A stretch of 28,366 nucleotides of DNA from Stentor roeselii. Lineage: Eukaryota > Ciliophora > Heterotrichea > Heterotrichida > Stentoridae. The position numbers were made by a program, and so were the translations under genes. The stretch lies in the NCBI GenBank assembly GCA_006503475.1, contig RSEH01000388.1, forward strand, positions 1-28,366, in the 5' to 3' direction. Positions 189 to 27,074 of this stretch are shown piece by piece (position 1 is the first letter of the stretch; each line of letters begins with the position of its first letter). The notes below the pieces were generated by a model, which saw only the letters and a list, made by a program, of their open reading frames with translations, had not been told where the DNA came from and did not search any database.

Positions 189-301
189 TCATTTCCTTCA
201 CATTGATAAATGGTTGAAATAATCATCTACGCTGATCCAATTCAGAGCCCTGCAGGAAAGTGTTAGAAGATATAAAAGTTTTTGGAAATTCAGGGGTTTT
301 T

Positions 302-3300
302 ATGATAGACTCTTTAAATTTAGATCACTTTAGCAATTTATTCATCAGAAACTTAACAATATCAAGATCTAGTGCTAAAGAAGGTGTTTTCTTATACTTA
401 ACTTCAAGAGTTATGATTAATCATTCATTGATTTCAGATATTGAAGGAAGGCTGAATCATAATTCAAAGTCATTTTTATTAGACTTTCACTATCAAGGAG
501 TTCTCAAATTAGAGAATTTTCGATTTATTGACAATTACAACTTTGAAACAATTGGGATTTCAGGGTCTTATCAAAACAAAATCCTGACTTTAAGTATTTC
601 GAACTTCTACTTATTTAACTGTTCTCAAATCTCTCAAGTTTTTGAATTTGTTGGTGAATCTGCTGATGCTATTTTAGTAACTATTAAAAATACTACAATC
701 ATGTGTTTCAATAATCCGGAAAAAACGATTGAATTTATCCATTTGAATTCAATAAATGTCTCCATTGAAGAAATTCAAGTAAAATATTCGAAATCCTTTT
801 CACATTTGACAAATTCTCAGCTTATCATTAATAAGGGGAAACTTCAATTTACTGAAAATACTTTGATTATTGTTCAGAGGGAAAGCTTTTTCAAGTGTAT
901 TGACTGTCAAATTTTGAATAATTCGGGTCCTCTTTTTGTAGTTACTATACAGAGCTCTATTTACTTGGAAAATTCTGAAATTCTTCATAATTTTATTGTT
1001 CATGAGTTGAGAAATTCTTTGTTTCAAATCGAATCTGAGGGAAAATTAATGAATATCTTAAATAAAACGAAACTTAGAGATAATAACACTAAAGGAAAAC
1101 AAACTTTTGAACTGTTCTATACTAGTTTTAAAATGATTGATTGTGAATTCTTCGGTAATATTCAACAAAATAAAGAATTTGTAGAAATAGTTGCTTATGG
1201 CTCAGACATTTATATAGAGAAATCTAATTTGATAAAGGATTCAAGCAAAGCATATGGATCATTCATATCTTTATCATTAGGAAGTAACCTCGAAGTAATG
1301 CAATCTTCTTTTTTCAAATCAATTTCAACTCAAAATGGGGGAGCAATCAGTGCTGAAAATTGTGTAATCATTAAAATTTCTAAGTCCTTATTCTCAAATA
1401 ATACTTCGAAGTTGAAGGGAGGAGCAATTTATTCAACTAAAACACCAGTGATTATTTCTGATTCAACCTTCGAATACAATAGTGCTTTGGATGGTTCAGA
1501 CCTATTTTTAACTGATAGTGACTACCAGATATCTGGAACTAATATTTCCAAATCTCTTAATATCAATCAGAACAACTCATTTGCTCTTCAATTGGCCGGA
1601 ACATCATTAATGATGATAAATACAACTATTCAAAATTTAGATTTTCAAGTCTCTGGACTTGAATGCAAATCTTTCGAACTTGTTACCATTAAAAACTGTA
1701 TTTTTACTCAAATTATTGGAAAATCTTTTGGAGCTACGTTGTTTAATGGTAATGGTATCAATGGGACTGTATATATTTTAGAAAGTCAATTTATTGATAA
1801 TTTCTCTGAAAATAATGGAGGAGCGATTTCTTTATTTGATAACAATTTAAATGTAAAAAATTCTATTTTCAGAACGAATAAAGCAGGGCTTGATGGAGGA
1901 GCACTTTTTTTAAATACTCATGAATGTGAAAAATGCAAATTTGAGATTGAAGGAAAATCGAATATTACTGAAAATTATGCTAAAAGAGATGGAGGAGGAA
2001 TCAAGTGGCTTGATTTTAGACCTGATTTTGACACTCAGATTATCATGAGTAATAACTCAGCTGCTTATGGGCATAACATTGCAAGTGGTCCTGCATTTTT
2101 GTGCATTGGTTTTAAGTGCTCTGAAAATCAAGAAAAAGAATATTCATCTAACATAAAGGATATTCCTCCAGGTCAGGAAATTTCAGAATTTCTGAAAATA
2201 AGTCTCTTTGATAGTTCTGAACAATTAATTCAAACCGATAATACAAGTGTCCTATTCCTAAAAAGCTTTAACAAAGATATCATCCTAAGTGGTCAAACAT
2301 CTTTCACTGCAATAAACGGATCATTTCACATAACAGGATTAATTATCAGGGCTAATCAAGGCTCAAAAGTGAGTATTATAGCTCAAACTGACTCAATATC
2401 TAACAATCCACCCAGAAATGACAATAAAACTTACAAAAACTTTATTGTTTTGAATGGAACTTTAAGAAATTGCATAGCTGGAGAAACTATTGAATCAGAT
2501 TCGTGCAGAAAGTGTCCTCAAACTGAATTTCTAATAAAACCTGAGAAGAGTTGTAAAGCTTGCCCCAAAGGTGGAATATGTCCTGGAGGATCGAGCATTT
2601 GGTTAAAGCCTGGATATTACCGAACTACAAACGAATCTGAAGTAGTCTATAAATGTCCATATCAAAATGCTTGTCTTGGGAATAGTAGTGGTTTTCAAAC
2701 TCAATGCTTGAAAGGATATACTGGAATAACCTGCTTTGTTTGTGATAAAGGTTACACTAGAGTTGCTTTTGATAAGTGTCAAGAGTGTCCTTCTTCAACT
2801 AATTATTATCTGAGTTTAGCTGGATTGATTGCAGTTTTTCTAGTTATCAGTGTTATTTTAGTGAAAACAACGATAAATTCTGCATTTAAGACTAAATCGA
2901 AATACTCGATTTACATCAAAATCTTTACTAATTACCTACAACTCGTGTTTTTAATAAGTGAGTTCGATCTCTCATGGCCAGATTACGTCATATCTTTCTT
3001 CGAAGCACAGAAATTCGTAGTAACAGCTTCAGACAGGTTTGTATCAATAGATTGTTACTCAGGATTCATTCAGGACAATTTTGATATATATCTTTATAAA
3101 ATTCTTTTTTATTCCTCTCTTCCTGTCATCATCTTTTTGGCTTCTTGTGTGGCTTGGCTAGGAATTTGCTTTCTCAAAGAAAGCTATGAATACATGAAGC
3201 GAGAATTGCCTTTAACAATTATCGTTATCTTTTTCTTGATTCATCCTGGACTGATCAAATTTTTATATTCAAACTTTTCATGTAAAGAATTTGACCAATT

Positions 3301-3685
3301 AGGAACTTACTTAAACGGCAACTACAATTTTAAGTGCTGGACAAGTGTTCATATAAAATACTCTTTAAACATTTGTTTACCTTCAATCATTTTGTGGTCC
3401 TGGGGGATTCCTTTTATTGTACTGGTTTTGATGATTAAAAATAGGAAAATTTTATATAAGGACCAAAACAAAATCATTTATGGATTTTTCTATAATGGTT
3501 ATAAGAGCTCGAAGTTTTATTGGGAGTTTGTTATACTCTATAGAAAAACTATTCTGATTTGTATTCTTATCTTTTTGGCTCAAGTTTCAATACCTGTCCA
3601 AGTACTAACTGTTGAGCTAGTTTTGATATTTTCACTTTGGAAGCAGTTGATAATCCCCTTGTATATATTTTGCAAATTAAATTAA
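302..3685 (+). CDS. Beta-helix (Pmp/pectin-lyase-like) ectodomain, Cys-rich, multi-TM membrane protein; probably truncated
   Basis: The frame is open from 236 (after TGA 233-235), with the first ATG at 302, giving about 1,127 aa. Residues 1-620 are a right-handed beta-helix with Pmp-style GGAI/GGAL/GGGI and FxxN repeats, clearest near residues 345, 372, 505, 532 and 563. Residues about 723-830 are Cys-rich (CxxC pairs, ephrin-receptor/GCC2-GCC3-like). About seven hydrophobic segments follow from about 835 to the end. The large ciliate family with this layout is thought to sit at the cell surface; ligand and role are unknown. Signs of breakage: no signal peptide, a 5' end that starts inside the beta-helix, and a stop at the point where family members have a KPF...NN-E motif and two further hydrophobic segments. 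That missing end occurs at 4385-4874. It may be a pseudogene or a truncated expressed gene. Confidence 0.75.
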   Translation: MIDSLNLDHFSNLFIRNLTISRSSAKEGVFLYLTSRVMINHSLISDIEGRLNHNSKSFLLDFHYQGVLKLENFRFIDNYNFETIGISGSYQNKILTLSISNFYLFNCSQISQVFEFVGESADAILVTIKNTTIMCFNNPEKTIEFIHLNSINVSIEEIQVKYSKSFSHLTNSQLIINKGKLQFTENTLIIVQRESFFKCIDCQILNNSGPLFVVTIQSSIYLENSEILHNFIVHELRNSLFQIESEGKLMNILNKTKLRDNNTKGKQTFELFYTSFKMIDCEFFGNIQQNKEFVEIVAYGSDIYIEKSNLIKDSSKAYGSFISLSLGSNLEVMQSSFFKSISTQNGGAISAENCVIIKISKSLFSNNTSKLKGGAIYSTKTPVIISDSTFEYNSALDGSDLFLTDSDYQISGTNISKSLNINQNNSFALQLAGTSLMMINTTIQNLDFQVSGLECKSFELVTIKNCIFTQIIGKSFGATLFNGNGINGTVYILESQFIDNFSENNGGAISLFDNNLNVKNSIFRTNKAGLDGGALFLNTHECEKCKFEIEGKSNITENYAKRDGGGIKWLDFRPDFDTQIIMSNNSAAYGHNIASGPAFLCIGFKCSENQEKEYSSNIKDIPPGQEISEFLKISLFDSSEQLIQTDNTSVLFLKSFNKDIILSGQTSFTAINGSFHITGLIIRANQGSKVSIIAQTDSISNNPPRNDNKTYKNFIVLNGTLRNCIAGETIESDSCRKCPQTEFLIKPEKSCKACPKGGICPGGSSIWLKPGYYRTTNESEVVYKCPYQNACLGNSSGFQTQCLKGYTGITCFVCDKGYTRVAFDKCQECPSSTNYYLSLAGLIAVFLVISVILVKTTINSAFKTKSKYSIYIKIFTNYLQLVFLISEFDLSWPDYVISFFEAQKFVVTASDRFVSIDCYSGFIQDNFDIYLYKILFYSSLPVIIFLASCVAWLGICFLKESYEYMKRELPLTIIVIFFLIHPGLIKFLYSNFSCKEFDQLGTYLNGNYNFKCWTSVHIKYSLNICLPSIILWSWGIPFIVLVLMIKNRKILYKDQNKIIYGFFYNGYKSSKFYWEFVILYRKTILICILIFLAQVSIPVQVLTVELVLIFSLWKQLIIPLYIFCKLN

Positions 3686-6342: not shown

Positions 6343-9300
6343 ATGAATCAGAACCTATCAGAAAAAGTTTATCCTAGACTTGAAACAGAGAGGAGAAAAA
6401 GAGCCTTAAGTAAAAAATACTTCATTTGTAAGTGTTTGCAATGCCAAAAATTCGTTCATTATTTTCATTTGATCGAGCATTCAAAATTCTGTGGAAGTTC
6501 AATTGATCCAAAAAACTTCAAATTTCCAAAAGATAAGAAATTCCTATTAAAAGAAACCCTTAAAAAGAGCATCAATAAACTCGAACTATTCCTTTCATTA
6601 CTTTCTATCAAAGATTTATCAAGTGAGCCACAAAAAGAAAACAAAATAAAAAAAATTTCAAAACTTTTAAAATTTTACTTAAATATATCCAAAAAGAGTA
6701 CATTTTTACATAATGAAATCATCGAAATTCAAAGCAAAGTATTTAATACCGATTTAATTTTCAACTCAGAAGCCCTTGATGTTGCCTTAAAAGTCAAAAA
6801 AACAGATTATTTTGAAACTTATGCTCCTGAAAAAATACCAATATTACAAAATTACTTTTTAATCAAAATCAATTTTTTAAATAGTTATAATGTTTGCCAT
6901 TTGCACAAGAATTATATTATAATTATAAATAGAAAATGTATAGCATGTTTAAATCTAGAAAATGAAACAATATTATTTATTATAGCTATCAAAAACGTCA
7001 CAAGTGTCCAGTTTGTTGGAGATCTCGATTTTCTTATTTATTATGTTGAATCTGTAGTTACTATCTGGAATGTTCGAGATTCATCAATAGAAAAACAAAT
7101 TCTATTTCCTGGCTGCAGAATTTTAGGAATTTATTTAAACTTCAGCCAGTCTCACGCGATAGTTCTTACTCAAAAAGGAATCAATGGCTTTACCCTTAAA
7201 TCTGTTGATTTATGCAACTTTGAATTAGAAAAATCAGTAATAAATTTATCATATTTGCCAGATGCTATAGTTATAAGTGAAACAAACACACCTTTCTTTT
7301 CATATAAAAATTCTATTTTAAGGGGAAATTTTGAAACAGATGAAATAGAGATGATTTATACTCACAGTTACAATATTAAATATTTATGTTTATCAAAAGG
7401 AGGCCAAAAAATCATTTTTTTTAGTAACCAAGAAATTAAAGTCTTAGATACAAAACTTAAATATATTAATGATGAGCTTACAATCAAATGGATCCAAAAA
7501 TTAATTTTTTGTAGAGCTGGTCTTTCTTTTTTGGTAATTGATAAAAGAGGATACTTTGATTTAAACAACATGGAATATATAAAAAATTTTGCTGCAAATG
7601 AAAATACAGATTTTTTAAATATAACACCTGAGAAGCCCTATACTACTTCAAGTTCAGGTATTTTAGGTCCTTACAATAAACCTTCAAGTGGATATATAAT
7701 AAAAGATTTGATACCAAACAATATAAAAATTAATCAGAATCTTAAAAAACAAATTGCAGATCCAAGTGAGATAAAACTTTTAAATGGTGCATATTACCAT
7801 TTCAATATTAGAAAAGGTTTAAATGATTACTTTGTTAATTTTTTCGATGGAAAACTCGAAATTACTTCCTTGAAAACCATGAAAAGCAGGAAGTTCATAT
7901 TTTCTTCGAAAATTAACACTTTTGACAGGATTAGAAACACAAATAGTTTTTTTTTAGCGGATAAAAAATTTTTATGTCTTTGGAAGGCAGATGAAAATTC
8001 CCCTTCCTTTGGAGTTTATGATTGTCAATTACGAAAATATAGTCCTGGATTAAAATGCACAATCTTTAAACAATTTCTGATTATTTCTACTTTACAAATG
8101 TATTTTTCTGTGTTAAAAATAAAAAATATGCATAAAAAAGTTTCTTTATTAGAAAATTTTGAATCAATTATAAGAATTACAGACAATTCGGTTTTATATA
8201 GAAAGGACGATAAAATTATGAATCTTAATAATGAAAGTAATCTTTTTATTTTTCACACTCATGATCATAGATTTAAGAGAGCAAAATTTCACTTTTTAAA
8301 TAATGAAATTATTGGAATTGTTAATCAAAATGGATTTTCTATGTTCGATATAATATCTGGCAAAATATTTTCTGATTCAGATATTGGACCATCATATTAT
8401 TGCATTCCTATACTTTTAAAAAATCACAATTTACTATTACTTGTACTGAATGATCGTATTAATGTTTATAATTTAAGCAATTTTAGAATTGTATTTAATA
8501 TTTTGGCTAAGTTTCCTGTAAGATCAATTTCAAATGAAAAAAATTATTTTATCTTTGAAAACTTGATTTACTTTAAGATCAAAACAGATTCAAAAATTAA
8601 CATAAAATATTTTGAAATATCTACATTCAAACATGGAGAAATCACTTTTTATGAAGATTATTTATCATTAGATTTCTATGAGCAATTTATTATCATTCGA
8701 AGACATGAAGGAGTATATTTATATTCATATTTAAATATTAAAGATCCATACAAAATCCCTCTCATCACTAGTGAAGGATATAATATTTGCATCAATCAAT
8801 TTATAATTAATTACAATGACAAAAATATTAATATTTTTAGTTTGATTGATCAAGAAATACATGAAATTAAAAGAAAAACTGAAAATTTTGCTAGGAGAGG
8901 CTTCTGGTATGAAATCAATTATCACTTTGTTCTGATACCTTCTGAGAATTTATTGATATTTTATAGAGGACATGATTCTTTTGTAAATCTTGAAGTTGAA
9001 GTGTTTGATCTTTTGACTTTTTCATCTGTTTACAATTTTTCAAATACTTTTTCAGAGTTGAACATACTAAAGATTAAAGATTCTATTTATATTGTTGAGT
9101 ATGATAAAGAGATTAATGTATATGTGAGAAATAACAACTTTATAGTGAAATGCAGACATAATATCCTTAAGCCTTATCATCGTAAGACTAAAATCTATTT
9201 AGAAGGAAACAATAATCAATATACAAGTATTAATTCAAACTCTTCAAGTTTCAGAAAAATGAAACTTATAGATCTTGATGATCATCAAATTATTGAAAAT

Positions 9301-9576
9301 ACTCATAAAGTCATAATTTATCATAAGGTCAGTAAGAGAGTAATCAGGGAAATTGAACTTAATGATTTGCTTGGTATAGTTTTGTCTATGAATGAAAAAA
9401 TTCTGGTTTTATTCAATAAAAGATCAATTTTAAAATACGATATTACTTTAGGAGAAACTGTAAAATTCGATATAGTATTCAACATCAAAAAATTACTCTT
9501 CTTATCAAACGATGGTAGCAAAGCTTATATTACCGATGATTACCTAAAAATAATATATGCAGCAGATCTTAATTAG
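6343..9576 (+). CDS. Lineage-specific C2HC zinc-finger plus cryptic beta-propeller protein (paralog A)
   Basis: Intact 1,077-aa frame from ATG 6343 to TAG. A single zinc-finger-like site near the N terminus has C31, C34, H46 and C50 (C-x2-C-x11-H-x3-C), followed by a Lys-rich helical stretch to about residue 150. The remaining roughly 900 residues are beta-rich, with short alternating hydrophobic strands and occasional WD40-like ends such as the VTIWNV strand with W242, consistent with one or more degenerate propellers. No signal peptide or membrane segment is evident, so a soluble intracellular protein is likely. The protein at 12308-15526 has the same layout, with all four zinc ligands at the same residue numbers. 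Zinc binding and propeller fold are inferred from pattern; the function is unknown. The two genes are tail-to-tail, 2.7 kb apart. Confidence 0.85.
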   Translation: MNQNLSEKVYPRLETERRKRALSKKYFICKCLQCQKFVHYFHLIEHSKFCGSSIDPKNFKFPKDKKFLLKETLKKSINKLELFLSLLSIKDLSSEPQKENKIKKISKLLKFYLNISKKSTFLHNEIIEIQSKVFNTDLIFNSEALDVALKVKKTDYFETYAPEKIPILQNYFLIKINFLNSYNVCHLHKNYIIIINRKCIACLNLENETILFIIAIKNVTSVQFVGDLDFLIYYVESVVTIWNVRDSSIEKQILFPGCRILGIYLNFSQSHAIVLTQKGINGFTLKSVDLCNFELEKSVINLSYLPDAIVISETNTPFFSYKNSILRGNFETDEIEMIYTHSYNIKYLCLSKGGQKIIFFSNQEIKVLDTKLKYINDELTIKWIQKLIFCRAGLSFLVIDKRGYFDLNNMEYIKNFAANENTDFLNITPEKPYTTSSSGILGPYNKPSSGYIIKDLIPNNIKINQNLKKQIADPSEIKLLNGAYYHFNIRKGLNDYFVNFFDGKLEITSLKTMKSRKFIFSSKINTFDRIRNTNSFFLADKKFLCLWKADENSPSFGVYDCQLRKYSPGLKCTIFKQFLIISTLQMYFSVLKIKNMHKKVSLLENFESIIRITDNSVLYRKDDKIMNLNNESNLFIFHTHDHRFKRAKFHFLNNEIIGIVNQNGFSMFDIISGKIFSDSDIGPSYYCIPILLKNHNLLLLVLNDRINVYNLSNFRIVFNILAKFPVRSISNEKNYFIFENLIYFKIKTDSKINIKYFEISTFKHGEITFYEDYLSLDFYEQFIIIRRHEGVYLYSYLNIKDPYKIPLITSEGYNICINQFIINYNDKNINIFSLIDQEIHEIKRKTENFARRGFWYEINYHFVLIPSENLLIFYRGHDSFVNLEVEVFDLLTFSSVYNFSNTFSELNILKIKDSIYIVEYDKEINVYVRNNNFIVKCRHNILKPYHRKTKIYLEGNNNQYTSINSNSSSFRKMKLIDLDDHQIIENTHKVIIYHKVSKRVIREIELNDLLGIVLSMNEKILVLFNKRSILKYDITLGETVKFDIVFNIKKLLFLSNDGSKAYITDDYLKIIYAADLN

Positions 9577-10548
9577 ATAAGATTAATAAGGACTAATAGA
9601 AAATAGTTTATCAATAATTATCTTTACTTTATGGACTACAAATAAAAAAAGTCTTACAATCATCATGAATTTTATAATTTTTAGATTGTTAGTTATATTT
9701 GTGACAGATTTTTTAGATATTTTTAGATATTAAACAAACACAATTATGTTTAAAGTGTAAAATATAATTCAAAAAAGTTTAACTGAACTAAATAAAGCAC
9801 TTAAATAAAGATAAAATCATTAATACAAATTTTCTATAATTATTATAAATACTTGCTCAACTAAAAAGAGGTGTTTAAATGAACGATAAAAATTTTAATG
9901 TACCATCTGTATGAATTTTAAAGGTAGGAGTGATATCAATAAAATTAGATCTAATTTAAAAAGAAAGGAGATACTTATGCAAAAGAAATCGATCGAAATA
10001 TGTATTGCTTAATTTCTCAACAGTATGACTTCAGAGCAGTAACATACTGAAAAAAAAATAAACCTTAGGTTTTTAACTCAAAAAATATCATAAACCTTTA
10101 TCAAATTCTGCTTGAGTATATTTTCTTTTGAAAAGTTATGATTAATCAATTTCTTATATTATTAAACTCATCTCCTCTTCAATATCCCTAATAAATACTA
10201 ATTATTTTCCAATTATAAAATGCATGTTCCTCTAATTCATTATTGAATTCAGATATTTATGATTCCTATTTGAATTTTAGGTGATTAACTTGCATTTAAA
10301 TTCATTCAGAAATTGAATTTTTTTCCAGATAACAAAAGGATCACAAATAGATTTTATTTTTTTATTGTTATTTATATCTGAACTAATAGTATATTCAGAT
10401 ATATAAATCACTTACATAGGTTCCTCAATTTTGTTTAATATAACTAATAATATCCACGCTTAGAAAAAGATGAAGATGTTGATTTTATCCTATTATGTAT
10501 TTCTTTAAGCTAAGAAAATTCAACCATATCTAGTAATTAGTGTATTAC
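9577..10548. other. AT-rich intergenic DNA between convergent genes, left part
   Basis: About 970 bp downstream of the first paralog, with no intact frame and no recognisable RNA gene. It contains the 3' flank of the TAG-terminated gene ending at 9576. The part next to 10549 adjoins a kinase-like relic on the minus strand, and some of it may be the decayed tail of that relic. Confidence 0.4.
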
Positions 10549-10656
10549 CTAAATTTTTTCGATAGTTTCATTTCGTTCAATCAATGCAGCCAATTCTTTG
10601 AAATTCATTCTTTCATCTTTACTTGAGCAGAGCATATTTTATATCAATTCTTTAAC
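10549..10656 (-). pseudogene. Relic of a protein-kinase C-lobe end (subdomain XI-like)
   Basis: In one minus-strand frame, 36 codons read as a typical kinase subdomain XI: a helix VKELI-x-NML, then a DER motif carrying the conserved Arg, then the FKELAALI helix. One TAA lies inside the first helix, where kinases often have Gln, and the frame ends at TAG 10549-10551. No intact gene surrounds it. It is either the far end of the relic at 10926-11483 after frame loss, or a second kinase relic. Confidence 0.45.
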
Positions 10657-10925
10657 AAATATTAGAAAAATTCATTAAAATAGTTATTAGAATTATATTA
10701 TTTCTGATTTTTATGTTATAATATATTAACCTCATGAATTTGGCATACAGATTCAATTATTTAAAGGAACATAATTTAATAGGAAACATATAAAATCAAA
10801 CATAAGTATAAACCAAAAGCTTTTTATTGATTCTAACATTATTTTACATAAATTCAATTCTTGTTTATCAATATTCCAATTATAATTTGTCTATTATCTT
10901 TGAAATCATTTTTATTTGATTGAGT

Positions 10926-11483
10926 TTATTACATGATCATCATATTTTTAAGAAATTTCTCGAGCCGAGAAAAACCACACTTCCTTAATCTTGACAGGAA
11001 ATAATCAATTTTTCCTTCGAAGATTTTTATTTTCCTTTGAAGAGCTATCTGTAAAATGATGGTCCCAACAGTATAAACATTTTCTTTCTCTAATGTTTCA
11101 TCGTATATAATGTGTGATTTATCATCATTTAAAGATTGTCTCTGTAAACTGATAGCTTGAAATATAACTCCTTGATTATTTTAAACACAACAATTCTCCA
11201 AATCAAAAATCTTGATAGTAAAGCTTTAATCGATTACAAATGATTTAAGATCGAATCTAGTTATAAAAATATTTTCACACTGAAGAACAAAGATCATTTC
11301 AATTAACGAAAATACTGAATTTTCTATGTTAATATTTGGTTTTCGGATGCCATGGTTTTTTAAAGACTTGATAAAATTAGATAAATTTGTTCCATCATCT
11401 TTTATGACGTTCCTATATGATTTGTCATTATTTTCATTGACTTTTGATTGACCAAGAGCTAAGCCTTCCATTTCAAGACCCAA
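10926..11483 (-). pseudogene. Kinase-like pseudogene with two in-frame TAA codons
   Basis: From 11483 down to 10932 one minus-strand frame runs 184 codons with only two stops, TAA at 11226-11228 and 11181-11183. The next stops are a TAA TAA pair at 10926-10931. Chance would give roughly fourteen stops here, so it was under coding selection until recently. Kinase traces are an ENIFIT strand, an IKIFDLEN segment in the DFG position (DFG becomes DLE), and ENVYTVGTIILQIAL matching the DVYSLG helix of the C-lobe. The HRD catalytic loop is missing. The open segment begins with TTG and has no convincing ATG start. It was probably a pseudokinase or kinase gene, now dead unless the TAA codons are read through. 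Confidence 0.55.
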
Positions 11484-12307
11484 AGAACCTATTTATTATA
11501 TAAATCAACAGCATTAATCATTTCAGGGAATTTCATATATACCTCAGTATCTGTGAGTCTTAGCTACTTTAAAGTAAATTATTTGGCGATTTTTTAAAAT
11601 TCTTGTGTTTCTTGTAATTTAAAAAAATTGAACTAAATTTGCATATGTTTCGAATTTTCTTTTCTTTTCTTCTGCAAGTTAATGTTAAGGATTCCATCTA
11701 AATTTATGATATTAGTTATAAAATAAGTTTTCTATTCAACCTAAAAAATTTCAGAGGAATGGATATATTAAACTTTTATTTCACCCTCATCTAATTTATT
11801 CTCATGACACAGGTTTCGTAATTTATAGAACTATTAGATAGGATTTGATTTAAGATTTGAAATTATTTTTGAACCGAATTAATAAAAGAATCATTACACG
11901 TCAAAAACTCTAGAAGTTACTTTCACAACTATAATACATAAAGGCTTATTATATTATCACTACAGTTTGATACTTTAAAAATTATCATAATTGAATTAGC
12001 TATCTGCAGGGCTACACGTTGTAAGCATAGCCCTAATTACTTTTAAATATCAGATCTATAATCAAAAAATTTTTTTTCATACAAAATAAAGTTAGTTTTA
12101 TCTTGTATAATATAACCAAAAGATCTTAATGGGAAAAAAGCTTATGCTTTATCGAATTTATAAATTTATGGATTAATCATAACTACAATCAATGAGATAT
12201 ATTAATAAAACCGAACAGATGAATGCCAGTAGAAAAAGGTACATAATTATCAAGTATCAATAAAAGCAACCCAAAAATTAATTTTAAACTAATATTCTTA
12301 CTATCTA
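11484..12307. other. AT-rich intergenic DNA between convergent genes, right part
   Basis: About 820 bp without an intact gene. Sequence just upstream of the kinase relic (minus strand) has dense stops in all frames and does not supply an obvious kinase N-lobe. The only distinct structure is the hairpin at 12008-12034. The 3' flank of the gene ending at 12308 lies at the right end. Confidence 0.4.
12008..12034. repeat. Perfect 7-bp stem-loop
   Basis: AGGGCTA (12008-12014) pairs exactly with TAGCCCT (12028-12034) around a 13-nt loop. The stem is unusually GC-rich for its surroundings. It lies about 270 bp beyond the 3' end of the minus-strand gene. No run of T follows, and the rest of a tRNA is absent. 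It could be an RNA processing or 3'-end signal, or a remnant. Confidence 0.4.
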
Positions 12308-15300
12308 TTATTCTATATCTATCGCTTGAATAAAGTTCCATTCTTTTGTCTTAATAAATATTTTCTTATCATCATTTGAAATAAATAAGAGACTATCAAT
12401 GCCACACGTTATGATTACTTTCTTGCCTGACTTACACGCAATATCAAAAGTTCCAATATAAGTACTTGTTCCATAAGTTATAATATTTCCAGATTTTGTT
12501 AAAAAAAATCCAATACATCCATAAACAAGAATCTCATCAAGCTGTTCATGACCATCCTTTGAAAAAATCATTATTTTTTCGCTTGTCCAGAAAATGATTC
12601 TTTCATTTGTTTCAATCAAAAATTTAGGAGATCTACGCATTCTTGATTCAACAAAATTCAAAAAATAATTTTTTTCATTACCTTTGGGAATCTTCAATGA
12701 TGATTCTATTACATACTCTGGAAAATGAGGAGTTTCTATTCGAAGAAAATTATTATTTAAATAAAGGCTGAACTCATTGCCAACTTTTGTGAAATAAATG
12801 CATTCGTTTATTTTTATAATTTGAGAGCGAGTATCAAAGTCATTTTCTTGAAAGTTATAAACAATATCTCCAGATTCAAGATCGTAAATGGAGAACTCTA
12901 ATAAAGGATAGAAATTTGTGATTCTAAATATAATAAATAGTTTTTTTTCAGGTATAATTAGCAAGTCGATCGTATTAATTAACTTTGAATTAATAAGTTC
13001 AGCCATTCTCGAAGATGTGCTTAATACGAGTTTTTTATCATTTTCTAAAGATTGAATTGTAATATTTTCTCTATTAATAATAAATACGAGGTCTTCCATT
13101 ACATACACTTTATTTTCTAAAGACCCTATTTCAATTATCTTTTCTAAGCGATTAAAATCAAGAGAATAAATCTTTAGATAATTTTCGTCAATGGTATAGA
13201 AAAGATTTTTATTGAATCCAATTCTTTCGTAGTCTGAATCAATAAAATTCAATACTTCCAAAGATTTTGATTCAATATTATAAATCAGAGATTTTTTTTC
13301 CCTTTTATTAGGGTTGAATGATTTGCCCATAATAATTATAAATAAATTTTCATCAGTAAATTCAAAGTAAACTTGCTTAATGTTCATAAAATTTTGCTTA
13401 TTTACTATTGAAAATGTTTTGAGATCATAAATATATAAATTCTTGCTTAGTTTAATAAGCAGCAAATCAAAATAGGATTCGATATAAATATTTTCCTCAA
13501 AATCATCAAATTCTATTCTATCTTGAATTAGCCCTGAACAAAGATCCATCAATATTAAGCTAAAAGAATTCATCAAAACTATCAAATTTTCTTTTATTAT
13601 AAATACTTGTTTATATTTTTTCAAAATTTTATCTTTTACTAAAATGGTTGGGAAATATTCTGCTGGTTCTATTTTTAAAATTTTACAACCATTCTTTAAA
13701 TAAATTCTGTCAGTGCACACTTGGATAATTGATTCATAATTATAAGAGATAAATCTTTGGTTTTCTTTAATTAATGAATAAATAATGCAACTAGTTCCGT
13801 TTTGTGAAACAACCAAATGTTTTGAAATCGTTCTTATCTTTATGTTTGACTGGCCAGAGTCATTAAAATCGCTTTCAAGTGCCAAAACCATTTTAGGGTA
13901 ATTAGAATCTGATCTCCAAAACCAATATCTAGATTTATTACTTATATAAAACATATCAGAATTTTTTATGATTCTTATTTTTCCTTCATTATTCATTCGT
14001 AAAGATATATTTTTTAAACTATTAGGACAAAAAATAGATATTTTATTTAGAGTCTCACATAAATAAAACTGAGATGAAGTCGATAAAAACTTTATTTTTT
14101 GAAGATCATTAGAATTGTGAAGAGTTTTTCTTATATAATTAAATAAATTTTTGTATATTTTTTCCGTGTTTTTAAATAAACTCATTTTAGAAATTCCTAT
14201 ATATGAGCTTGTAAGTTGTAAAATATATTCATTGATTATTGTTTTTTTGTTATTTTTTTGAAGTTCGATTCTATCCAGGTCAATCATTATTTCCGAGTTC
14301 AAAACTAATATTTTTCTATCAGAAGTTAAAAATGAAAGCCATTTTAAAGTATTATTCTCGAACTTATAAATTAATTCAGTGGTTTCAGAACTAATACTCA
14401 AAACTTTAACAAAAGGAAAACCAAGGAAAATAATTTTTTTACTATCATTACTAAAGCACATCATAGAAATTTCTTCTGACCCAGTATACAAGCATTTTTT
14501 TCCTCCTTCCTTCACAAATAAAATATTTCTATTAGCAAAGTAAAACTCATCAATATCATTCGAGACAATAAACACTTTGAAAGATTCATCTAATTTTAAT
14601 TTGGTGATGTTAATTTCTAAGATGTTTAAGTCAAGTGAAAAAATATCAAATTCATTTGATCTTTGAGACTTGGGATTTAAAAATATTGCACGAGTTTTAT
14701 TTAGATTAAAATGGACATCAAAAGAAGAAATTTTTCCTATATTTATGATTTTTTCTACTCTTCTAAAACAAATATTCCAAATAGTTAGTTGATCATTCTT
14801 ATAAAATATCACATATTCCATATTTCCTAGTATTTGCGCACAGAACTTTAGAGAAACCTTCAAAGTAAAAAGTGCTTCACAAGTTTCAAAATTTATGCAA
14901 ATTATTTTCTTATCAAACTGAGCCAATAACCATTTATTAAAAACAGCTTTAAAGTTCCACTTAGCATTATTTTCTGAATCAACCTTCGCAAAATTGAAAT
15001 TTCTTGAAAGTTTCGGTTTTTCATCTAAATTTTTCCTAAATTTTTCAGATTTTCTCGATACTTTATTCACTTGAAGTATTCCTGGAACAAAAGAAAAGAC
15101 TTGTTTATTTTTTATCAAGTTTTCTGATATTTCGAGGAATTCTGTTAGAGTAAAATTTGATTGAAGTTTTATCATCGAATAACACTTATAAAAATTTTCA
15201 ATTTTTTCAAGGATTTGTAAGAGTTTAATGACTTCAACTTCATTTGAATTAGTTAGTTTTAAATTTACCAAATTCTTTACTACCTCAAGGTTTCTTTGAT

Positions 15301-15526
15301 TAGAGATAAAAGCTTTTTCGGCTTCTTCAAGTAAGTATTCAGGGATCTCGTAATGAACCGGCCCTTTTTTGCAAGGACATTTTTTATCATGCACTACGAT
15401 ATCTGCAGAGTATATGCTGTGATTACATTCAATGCACTTGAAGACCTTCGATATACTTTTATCAAGGCCTTTATCTTCTTCGGGGAAATATTCGTCATCG
15501 CTTTGCTGAAGCCAGTCCACAATCAT
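12308..15526 (-). CDS. Lineage-specific C2HC zinc-finger plus cryptic beta-propeller protein (paralog B)
   Basis: Intact 1,072-aa frame from ATG 15524-15526 to TAA. The N terminus is acidic, then C31, C34, H46 and C50 form the same C-x2-C-x11-H-x3-C site at the same residue numbers as in the gene at 6343-9576. A helical region (about 60-140) follows, then a long beta-rich region with WD40-like strands, including LTIWNI with W250 (W242 in the paralog), a KKIIFLG...VKVL segment and a closing SNDDKKIF strand. All have counterparts in the paralog. The two proteins are clearly related but diverged, so the duplication is old and both copies were kept intact. The WD40 protein at 16017-18086 lies upstream on the same strand, about 490 bp away. 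Molecular function is unknown; a scaffold or protein-binding role is only what such folds usually do. Confidence 0.85.
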   Translation of the reverse strand: MIVDWLQQSDDEYFPEEDKGLDKSISKVFKCIECNHSIYSADIVVHDKKCPCKKGPVHYEIPEYLLEEAEKAFISNQRNLEVVKNLVNLKLTNSNEVEVIKLLQILEKIENFYKCYSMIKLQSNFTLTEFLEISENLIKNKQVFSFVPGILQVNKVSRKSEKFRKNLDEKPKLSRNFNFAKVDSENNAKWNFKAVFNKWLLAQFDKKIICINFETCEALFTLKVSLKFCAQILGNMEYVIFYKNDQLTIWNICFRRVEKIINIGKISSFDVHFNLNKTRAIFLNPKSQRSNEFDIFSLDLNILEINITKLKLDESFKVFIVSNDIDEFYFANRNILFVKEGGKKCLYTGSEEISMMCFSNDSKKIIFLGFPFVKVLSISSETTELIYKFENNTLKWLSFLTSDRKILVLNSEIMIDLDRIELQKNNKKTIINEYILQLTSSYIGISKMSLFKNTEKIYKNLFNYIRKTLHNSNDLQKIKFLSTSSQFYLCETLNKISIFCPNSLKNISLRMNNEGKIRIIKNSDMFYISNKSRYWFWRSDSNYPKMVLALESDFNDSGQSNIKIRTISKHLVVSQNGTSCIIYSLIKENQRFISYNYESIIQVCTDRIYLKNGCKILKIEPAEYFPTILVKDKILKKYKQVFIIKENLIVLMNSFSLILMDLCSGLIQDRIEFDDFEENIYIESYFDLLLIKLSKNLYIYDLKTFSIVNKQNFMNIKQVYFEFTDENLFIIIMGKSFNPNKREKKSLIYNIESKSLEVLNFIDSDYERIGFNKNLFYTIDENYLKIYSLDFNRLEKIIEIGSLENKVYVMEDLVFIINRENITIQSLENDKKLVLSTSSRMAELINSKLINTIDLLIIPEKKLFIIFRITNFYPLLEFSIYDLESGDIVYNFQENDFDTRSQIIKINECIYFTKVGNEFSLYLNNNFLRIETPHFPEYVIESSLKIPKGNEKNYFLNFVESRMRRSPKFLIETNERIIFWTSEKIMIFSKDGHEQLDEILVYGCIGFFLTKSGNIITYGTSTYIGTFDIACKSGKKVIITCGIDSLLFISNDDKKIFIKTKEWNFIQAIDIE

Positions 15527-16016: not shown

Positions 16017-18086
16017 TCAATGTAAATATCTAGCAAGTCCTGCTTTAATATCCTTATTTTTTTCAAGCCAAATTTCCGACTCAGCCAAATTCAAAAAATA
16101 ATTTTCTTTATGTTTTTTTTCAATATTCCAAACATAAATTCCATTAATCGCATCTGTAGACACAACATATTTTTGATCACTAGTGATCATCACTCTCCAA
16201 ATATCCTGTCGATGCCCATCTAATTTAGCATGAATAGCATTTTTAACGAGATTCCAAATAACCAGTTGTTTATCTTCACCGCCAGAAGCTGAAAAAGTTT
16301 TGCTCTTCGTGATTTTCACAGTATAAACCTTTCCAGTATGCTCTGTAAAAGATAAATTTTGTTGAAAGGTAATCATGTCCCAATACTGAATATTTCCAAG
16401 AGAATCTCCACTCAAGGCACCCACACCATCACTTGAAACATCGACACAAAATACTGAGCCTTTATGTCCATTGAGAATAGCTTTTATTGATCCTTCTTGA
16501 AGATTCCAAACAATTAAATTATTTTCATTTCCTTCAGAGCCACTAATCAAAAAATTTTTATTTGTTGATAAACAAGTTACTTCAACATTATTCACATGAC
16601 CTAAGAGGATTTTATCATTGTTACTTTTAGATACATCACATATGATTACTTTTTCTGAATTACCATAAGAGATTAGACTTTTGCTGATATTTTCGGAATC
16701 TGTATTGAAAGTCTTTAAACTTAAATAAGCCTCACAGATCTGTGATGAAATATTTGTGATTCCAATTCTTCCATCACGAGAAACAGAAAAAATTCGATTA
16801 TTAACGGATTTTACACTGAATATAAAATCTTCGTGAATATGCAACTTGAATAATGATGATTTTGAATTCACGTCCCACAGTATTACTGACCTGTCCTCTG
16901 AACCGGAAATTATGTTTTCATTGTTGCTGGTCACTGATACAGATAATACAGGGGCTGAATGATCTGAGTGAGCTCCCCAAAATGCAAGAGAATCAGTTTT
17001 CCAGATTTTAACTTCAGAGTCTTCTGATCCTGTCACTATTAGTTGAAAATCTGATGTAGTTGCTATGGTTAATATTTGCTGATTATGAGCTTTATTTGAG
17101 TAAATTTTTTCTATGGATATTAAATCCCATATTTCTAAGATATTCCGTGTAGCTGTGAAATATAAGTTTTCAGAAATGATAATACCACAGTATATTTTAT
17201 ATTGAGTAGGTATTCTTTTGTATATATTACTCGAATCAATTTTCCACAATATTATTTCATTTCCATAGCCTCCAGAAGCAATTAATTTTTCATCAAAACT
17301 AAAAACAACACTAGAAACAGCAGCTGAATGTCCTGAAAATATATTTTTCAAGCATCGGTGTTCAAGGTCCCAAAGTATTACTCTTTTATCCGCAGATCCA
17401 CTGAGGGCAAGGCGACTATCATTTGATAATGCGACGCTTAAAACTGCCTCATTATGCTCAGCATAGCAAGCTGTTTGACTAATGCTAATAGTATCCCAAA
17501 CTCTTACTGTAGTGTCTTCAGATCCAGTGAGAAAAGTTTTTCCATCTTTAGAAACAGCTAAACAATAAAATCCTCCATTGTGAGTTTGTAAAAACTTCTT
17601 CCACGCATATTCATTTTCTTTCACAATATCTGATCGAAAATTTATGAAATTCTTTGAGTAAACTCTCTTTATATCTGAAATCAATATTTCTAATTCAGGT
17701 TTAATCAAATACATTTCAGATTTTATGATGCATTTAATTTCTTCTATATCTGAAATTGGAAATTCTGTTTCTATTGAAATTTTATAATAATTATTTAAAG
17801 TTTTATTAATCTTTTGAAGGGCAAGGTTGAATAAGTTTTTAATTTCTTCGATTAGGTGTTTTGTTTGATTTTCTAAGTTTTTCTTAAGATCATTTAATGA
17901 AAGGATCCTCTGATTAAGTTCTGTTTTAAACATGTTTTTTTCAAATGGTTCAAGTTTTATCTTAAGTCTCTGATATTGATGGTTTTCTGTACTATCTAAG
18001 TGTTGATCAAAATGAGATTGACACAAATAAATTTCTGAGCAGTGACACAAAAATAAGGGTAGTTTATTACAGAATTTGCAGTTCAT
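16017..18086 (-). CDS. B-box-like zinc site, coiled coil and about 12 WD40 repeats
   Basis: Intact 689-aa frame from ATG 18084-18086 to a TGA stop. Residues 1-40 resemble a B-box zinc site (C3, C6, C14, C16, C22, H25, H29, H36). Residues about 45-160 are a charged helical region, probably a coiled coil. From about 165 to 680 there are around twelve canonical WD40 repeats with GSEDTTVRVWD-, GSADKRVILWD- and GSEDRSVILWD-type ends and GH/EH starts, enough for two seven-bladed propellers if degenerate blades are counted. The overall B-box, coiled coil, propeller layout resembles TRIM-like scaffolds without a RING; no enzymatic domain is seen. The repeats are far closer to consensus than the cryptic propellers of the two roughly 1,075-aa neighbours, so it is not a simple paralog of them. 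Function unknown; probably a cytoplasmic scaffold. Confidence 0.9.
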   Translation of the reverse strand: MNCKFCNKLPLFLCHCSEIYLCQSHFDQHLDSTENHQYQRLKIKLEPFEKNMFKTELNQRILSLNDLKKNLENQTKHLIEEIKNLFNLALQKINKTLNNYYKISIETEFPISDIEEIKCIIKSEMYLIKPELEILISDIKRVYSKNFINFRSDIVKENEYAWKKFLQTHNGGFYCLAVSKDGKTFLTGSEDTTVRVWDTISISQTACYAEHNEAVLSVALSNDSRLALSGSADKRVILWDLEHRCLKNIFSGHSAAVSSVVFSFDEKLIASGGYGNEIILWKIDSSNIYKRIPTQYKIYCGIIISENLYFTATRNILEIWDLISIEKIYSNKAHNQQILTIATTSDFQLIVTGSEDSEVKIWKTDSLAFWGAHSDHSAPVLSVSVTSNNENIISGSEDRSVILWDVNSKSSLFKLHIHEDFIFSVKSVNNRIFSVSRDGRIGITNISSQICEAYLSLKTFNTDSENISKSLISYGNSEKVIICDVSKSNNDKILLGHVNNVEVTCLSTNKNFLISGSEGNENNLIVWNLQEGSIKAILNGHKGSVFCVDVSSDGVGALSGDSLGNIQYWDMITFQQNLSFTEHTGKVYTVKITKSKTFSASGGEDKQLVIWNLVKNAIHAKLDGHRQDIWRVMITSDQKYVVSTDAINGIYVWNIEKKHKENYFLNLAESEIWLEKNKDIKAGLARYLH

Positions 18087-25598: not shown

Positions 25599-27074
25599 AT
25601 GGGAAGAAGAAACAAGAAACTTGCGAAGCTTCAACAAGCACAACAAGCTCGTGAGTTTCTTCGACACAAAGAAAAACACACAAGTTTCTATTCTTTACCC
25701 TCTGATGAGAAGCGAATCGAGATAGCTTACACAAGCACAATAATCTTAAGCAACCCTGAACTTCAATACACGAAACTCGAGTCACTTTTCGAGTTATGCG
25801 AAGACCCAGATCTCGAGATCCGTGCTTTGTCGATTTCCTCTCTTTGCAGCATTTTCATCGACATTCTTCCAGGTTACAAAATAAAGTCTCATGAGGAGGA
25901 AAAGATTTCATTATCAAAAGAAACAAAAGCACTGAGAATATATGAGTCAGACTTGTTGAAGTATTATTCTAGGTTTATTGAAATTGTGGAAAATGTGAAC
26001 TCGCTTGGAGCCATCAGCGTCATTTGTCGGCTTCTTGTGAAACTCAGTCATTTTAACTACAGGGAAAAACTTCTGAACCTTGCTCTTCGGTTTATTAATG
26101 ACTCGCCTGATGAGGTGGTTGATGTTCTTCAGATTATTCTCACGTCGAATGACCTTGAGTTCAGGTTTGTCACTGTCAAGACTATCGAGCAGTATGTAAA
26201 ATCCACGTCTTTCAAGATAATCCCGGAAAAAATCATTGAAATCTTGGCAAGTCTTAAATTCAATAAACTTCAAAACGACCTGCCAATGAAAAGAAAAAGA
26301 GAAGAAGAAGATATTGAAGGGAAAAAAGCAGAACAAGAAGTGGTTTATGTAAAATTTATTTAGAACCAGAAGACTCTTAGAGAAGTTCTTTCAATTTACT
26401 TTTTAGTAGTAAAGAGATATTTTAATACGAAACTTCTTACACCTACTTTAAAAGGACTTTGCAAATTCGCAGAAATGTTGAACATTGAAATTGTTTTAGA
26501 CCTGGTGAAGAACTTGCTGGATTTACTTAAAGAAAAAAAAATCAAATCGATTAATCGTTTTCACTGCATCTTCGCCTGCATCAGAATAATTTCTTCTACT
26601 CAGCAAGTCCTGAAATTCGAAGACAAAGACCTGACAAAGATCTTGTATAATGCACTTCTGGTCCCTCCTAGTGACAGGCCTTCTCAACGAATAATGATCC
26701 AAGGACTATCATGGTTATTAGTCGAGCAGAAACAGTTTTCTTACGACCTGGTTTCTGCCTTTTTAAAGAGAATCATGCAAGTCGCTTTTCATTGTGACTT
26801 GGAACTAATGAGGAGCCTTTTGTGTCTTTCAAAGCAGATCATGTTGAAGTTTCCGAAATCTTCATCTCTTCTCGAAGAAGACGAATCCACAGGTCACTAC
26901 AACGCTTCAATTCCAGACCCGTACTTAGCAGAAGCCAGCAGCTCTTCACTAGTTTCAGAACTTTCACTGTTAAAAACAATAAAAGATAGCCAAGTGAGTG
27001 CTTTGATCAAGTCTCTCTCTTCGAAACTCCCTTCAACTTCAAAACCTTTGGATTATTTAAATAGTTTTGAATAA
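25599..27074 (+). CDS. NOC3: Nucleolar complex protein 3 (NOC3), two exons joined over a 15-nt intron
   Basis: Exons 25599-26348 and 26364-27074 encode 486 aa. Exon 1 holds the N-terminal NOC3 domain (about residues 30-150), including the SLCSIFIDILPGYKI block and the LRIYESDLLKYY helix. Exon 2 continues without frame change into the CBF/NOC3 C-terminal repeats: LSIYFLVVKRYFNTKLLTP, LKGLCKFAEMLN, and a C-terminal IPDPYLAEASSSSLVSELSLL block matching the conserved DPE-C-A-SS-LWEL region. Noc3 works with Noc2 in late nucleolar steps of 60S subunit maturation and, in yeast, also in replication licensing. It is shorter than yeast Noc3 (about 660 aa), mainly lacking an acidic N terminus and inter-domain linkers. 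A Lys/Glu-rich linker ends exon 1. Divergent from the 399-aa gene; the next gene begins right after its stop. Confidence 0.9.
26349..26363 (+). other. 15-nt spliceosomal intron in NOC3
   Basis: gtaaaatttatttag lies between ...VVY and NQKTLRE.... It starts GTA and ends TAG. Removing it joins two halves of NOC3 in frame across a conserved region, and keeping it puts an in-frame TAG into the mRNA. Heterotrich ciliates such as Stentor are known for introns of this length, which is a strong hint to the organism. It is a multiple of three, so only the internal stop, not frame, reveals it. Confidence 0.92.

Follow-up and report, generated by a model that had tools for sequence, protein, structure and literature searches.

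We describe here two convergent genes on the Stentor roeselii contig RSEH01000388.1, all 28,366 nucleotides of which make up the window. In the reading that we favour, they are members of a small family of scaffold proteins that diverge quickly, with a C2HC zinc finger and a helical linker ahead of a strand-rich stretch of about 890 residues, probably folded into two or three beta-propellers. Gene A (6343-9576, forward strand, stop TAG) encodes 1,077 aa and gene B (12308-15526, reverse strand, stop TAA) 1,072 aa, their 3' ends facing each other. Both frames are open under the standard code and their ends did not change when TGA was read as tryptophan, so that the two intact, tail-to-tail genes of the original prediction could be recovered as described. 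As strings of 15 or 16 bases running from GT to AG occur twice within A and three times within B, short introns are still possible in both.

Gene family and selection

A and B were found to be homologous by BLASTP (24% identity over 763 aa), and because of the E value (2e-26) their likeness is not attributed to chance. The sequence landmarks that had been pointed out earlier were found in matching alignment columns: TIWN at A240 and B248 (W242 and W250), KIIF at A356 with KKIIF at B363, and SND at A1055 and B1050. When the genome (44.4 Mb in 522 contigs, the window being the whole of C332) was searched with A, B and the C311 member as queries, each query gave the same two additional full-length paralogues and, among the best candidates, which were the ones scored, no further full-length member. 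The first, C214:39849-43046, shares 42% identity with A over the length of A, and the second, C311:15418-18576, shares 30% identity with B over most of B. The suggestion that A and B had derived from each other as a pair was not supported, since A is closest to C214, and B to C311. Judged from these comparisons, the four genes are a real family with four full-length members. No relative was confirmed among 447 pattern-matching stretches of viral contigs or 595 such stretches of bacterial and archaeal genomes, as is expected for a eukaryotic family.

The ratio of nonsynonymous to synonymous substitution (dN/dS), proposed earlier as a check on the paralogues, was calculated by NG86 with bootstrap and came to about 0.5: 0.46/0.95 = 0.49 (0.40-0.58) for A and C214, 0.72/1.48 = 0.49 (0.37-0.61) for B and C311, and 0.96/1.79 = 0.54 (0.37-0.68) for A and B, the last being close to saturation. 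The family genes are thus under purifying selection. Fast divergence could also be expected of functionless duplicates heading for decay, and decayed pieces of the family do exist elsewhere in the genome. The 3' part of B (window 12,364-12,821) recurs at C441:721-1173 (L028) as a copy with 94% DNA identity, in which five bases are deleted and 23 substitutions are spread 8/8/7 over the codon positions, as evenly as in a copy free of constraint; C473 carries a shorter fragment from the 3' end of A. The C441 copy lies not far from the end of its contig and has an intact WD40 open reading frame (ORF) as a close neighbour. Nevertheless, all four full-length genes have stayed open at a dN/dS of about 0.5, which makes decay of the family itself a most improbable explanation.

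The N-terminal finger

The finger was located at 6433-6492 (forward strand) in A and at 15377-15436 (reverse strand) in B, with its ligands at identical residue numbers in both proteins (C31, C34, H46 and C50), in agreement with the original prediction. The pattern C-x2-C-x11-H-x3-C occurs once in each of the four proteins (in C311 at 13/16/28/32, in the other three at 31/34/46/50), and its four ligands are among the alignment columns that are invariant in all members. In an AlphaFold2 model of full-length A with B, residues 28-50 were predicted as strand, strand and helix with a predicted local distance difference test score (pLDDT) of about 50, the best stretch of an otherwise poor model. 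A profile of the finger matched classical zinc fingers among PDB sequences (E 0.0013), and the conserved site presumably binds metal.

Assignment to a named finger family was less successful. Pfam gave no match for the finger of A, and those for the other members were all under the cut-off: DUF1922 and LIM for B, Zn_ribbon_ACC for C214 and C311, and Sgf11 and zf_UBZ for C311. The zf_UBZ score of the C311 finger was 13.7 bits vs a cut-off of 25.6, and the other three fingers did not match this family. Likewise, zf-C2HC_2 (PF13913) matched 22 places in the genome, none of them A, B, C214 or C311, and gave no match in the finger and protein scans. The family finger shares the CCHC ligands and the predicted betabetaalpha pattern with the small fingers of UBZ4, zf-C2HC_2 and Sgf11, and its ligand spacing is, we assume, that of UBZ4 and zf-C2HC_2; it differs from them in being under the Pfam cut-off or unmatched. 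The ubiquitin-binding motif DxHxAxCL, described for the UBZ2 finger of FAAP20 in PMC4267625, is absent from all four fingers. We read this element as a predicted betabetaalpha C2HC finger that can be placed in no named family.

The strand-rich region

In A, the finger is followed by a helical linker predicted in a low-confidence model (residues 65-133; 6535-6741, forward strand) and by a beta-strand-rich region (residues 182-1075; 6886-9567, forward strand), in which profile similarity and models, all of low confidence, point to two or three probable propellers. In a comparison of profiles, the family was similar to WD repeats near columns 251-262 and 347-388, above the controls of that comparison. 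The last 108 residues of A (970-1077; 9250-9573, forward strand) are the best-modelled part, and in the low-confidence C-terminal model they show blade-like strands, which superposition matches to two to three blades from known propellers. Local likeness to propeller blades is shown by the sequence profile and also by a model, the latter of low confidence. The structural matches listed, from Foldseek with the full-length and C-terminal models and from superposition, read as propellers, the models being of low confidence. Thus the cryptic propeller that was originally predicted found indirect support, from the likeness to WD repeats and to blades in profile and model. The models did not give the result named earlier as contrary evidence, a predicted structure devoid of propellers, but neither did they show a ring that closes.

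A number of observations weigh against propellers. The full-length model had a mean pLDDT of 32.4 and a predicted TM-score (pTM) of 0.25, because of which its Foldseek matches are weak evidence; the C-terminal model reached a pLDDT of 49.9 and a pTM of 0.45, and TM-scores to the Foldseek matches listed were about 0.08-0.29. Matches of low-confidence models are meaningless according to the description of the tool, and the comparison was made without a low-confidence model of a non-propeller protein as control. At E 10, Pfam matched none of the four members to a WD40 family, the WD40 repeat itself (PF00400, curated cut-off 27 bits) included, or to any other propeller family. The autocorrelation of the family profile was highest at lag 9 (0.226, vs 0.225 for the highest among 200 shuffles), and lag 42, at which four WD40 ORFs of the same genome peak, was outside its eight highest lags. 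When sequences were scored singly, A (17.3) and B (15.1) did not rise above the background, in which reversed ORFs reached at most 19.1 and an unrelated forward ORF 17.8, and the scores above it were those of C214 (25.7) and, barely, C311 (19.7). In a comparison with 94 ORFs the second-best ORF outside the family was no recognised WD40 protein. Internal repeats examined by hhalign were mixed, as none of 40 shuffles reached the real score in three of six comparisons and 2, 2 and 3 did so in the others; since column shuffles destroy strand alternation, this test was not taken as proof.

The missing 42-residue period, the poor models and the absence of a Pfam propeller match could also be explained if the strand-rich part adopted another repetitive beta fold, such as a beta-solenoid or stacked beta-sandwiches. 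We regard this as unlikely, given that the similarity to WD-repeat profiles exceeds its controls and that the structural matches listed read as propellers.

An alternative of considerable weight, although we hold it to be somewhat short of probable, concerns the origin of the family and is compatible with propellers. It was proposed that the four proteins might be extreme offshoots of the genome's own zinc-finger/WD40 families, with an ordinary architecture and eroded repeats. The neighbouring gene at 16017-18086, which has eight WD40 stretches, offers a similar layout of a Cys/His-rich N-terminus, an intervening segment and a propeller-like C-terminal part in the same genome neighbourhood; the matches to WD-repeat profiles described above would fit such a descent, and the WD40 ORFs of the loci retrieved form a gradation that extends to weak examples. 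However, likeness to any single WD40 protein was marginal (best 11.2 bits, E 3e-4, among the 94 ORFs), and by eye the ligand spacing of the finger is unlike the N-terminus of the neighbour. The family further differs from this neighbour in having WD repeats that are invisible to Pfam, a C-x2-C-x11-H-x3-C finger and about 890 strand-rich residues in place of about 510.

Proteins of the DDB1/CPSF160/SF3B3 type (MMS1_N, CPSF_A) are cryptic triple propellers and resemble the family in length (about 1,100 aa, compared with about 1,080 here), in cryptic blades and possibly in having three rings. The Foldseek matches listed for the full-length model included DDB1 entries, aligned over about 980-1,190 columns with TM-scores of about 0.1. 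We consider a diverged member of this type very improbable and rejected DDB1 membership: at E 10, none of the four members was matched by MMS1_N or CPSF_A, CPSF_A matched four other places in the genome, and the family carries an N-terminal zinc finger, which DDB1-type proteins are not known to have. It also seems very improbable that the proteins are lineage-restricted cryptic triple-propeller hubs which arose independently of DDB1 and WD40 proteins and whose finger reads a ubiquitin-like mark.

Genomic surroundings

It had been noted that A and B stayed open while the DNA between them decayed, and this was indeed observed, as 10,520-11,914 (reverse strand) holds pieces of a decayed WD40-protein gene with only short open frames remaining. 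The two ends of a 1,370-aa ORF, C122:8433-12545, have counterparts in window 11,398-11,618 (72% DNA identity) and 10,938-11,408 (86%), so the relic has kept both ends and misses about 3.5 kb of the middle relative to its C122 relative. In Pfam, which was run on two pieces of this ORF, it is a WD40 protein; a WD40-kinase fusion was considered and dropped, as WD40 families and no kinase were among the matches listed. Two shorter matches to the region of the relic were found on C485. On C178, C92, C119, C83, C441 and C122, WD40-repeat ORFs are also found a few kb or less from the end of the contig, and no telomere repeat was obvious by eye in the contig ends inspected.

With regard to the genetic code, TGA is apparently a stop here: it terminates the WD40 gene at 16017-18086, and in the seven genes examined, which use TGG codons, no further in-frame TGA occurs. 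One in-frame, intron-like stretch of 15 bases (26,349-26,363), running from GT to AG and closing with a TAG stop codon, interrupts a NOC3-like gene at 25,599-27,074 (Pfam NOC3p and CBF). For Blepharisma, PMC9942806 reports tiny introns that are mostly 15 or 16 bases long, and the title of a Stentor genome paper cited there also mentions tiny introns. These features would fit the standard code and a heterotrich ciliate, on the strength of a single intron-like stretch. At 260-3685 the window also holds a 1,141-aa ORF with one match to a Chlamydia PMP repeat (E 6e-6) and one to DUF7630, which by eye appears to be a membrane protein.

Possible role and implications

No named family that combines a finger with cryptic propellers was found in Pfam, PDB sequences or NCBIfam, the last of which says little since it is built for prokaryotes, and the earlier view that this architecture could not be named was thereby supported. 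Among the titles listed in paper searches on ciliate and heterotrich WD40, zinc-finger and beta-propeller proteins, none deals with such a family, and it is on this title-level result alone that we call it undescribed. Designs that couple a zinc finger to propellers are familiar; the new part is the unrecognisable blades together with the finger spacing.

If the favoured reading is right, each protein would run from the N-terminal betabetaalpha finger through a linker of about 70 residues into about 890 strand-rich residues, which probably form two or three propellers whose WD signature is nearly gone. By analogy with finger-plus-propeller scaffolds, the propellers may offer a rigid platform for peptides or partner proteins, while the finger, with the helices, may dock to another partner, be it ubiquitin, a protein or a nucleic acid, or may pair two copies of the protein. 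Through the two contacts together the protein would bring its clients together; this scaffold role, and the cell location, we infer.

Nothing known is overturned by these results. If true, they would provide a likely architecture for an unannotated family of large genes in a heterotrich-like genome, and would suggest that propeller proteins can drift until WD40 profiles no longer recognise them, even as the four residues of a metal site are kept. With blades beyond the recognition of such profiles, counts of propellers in protists of this kind would therefore be too low.
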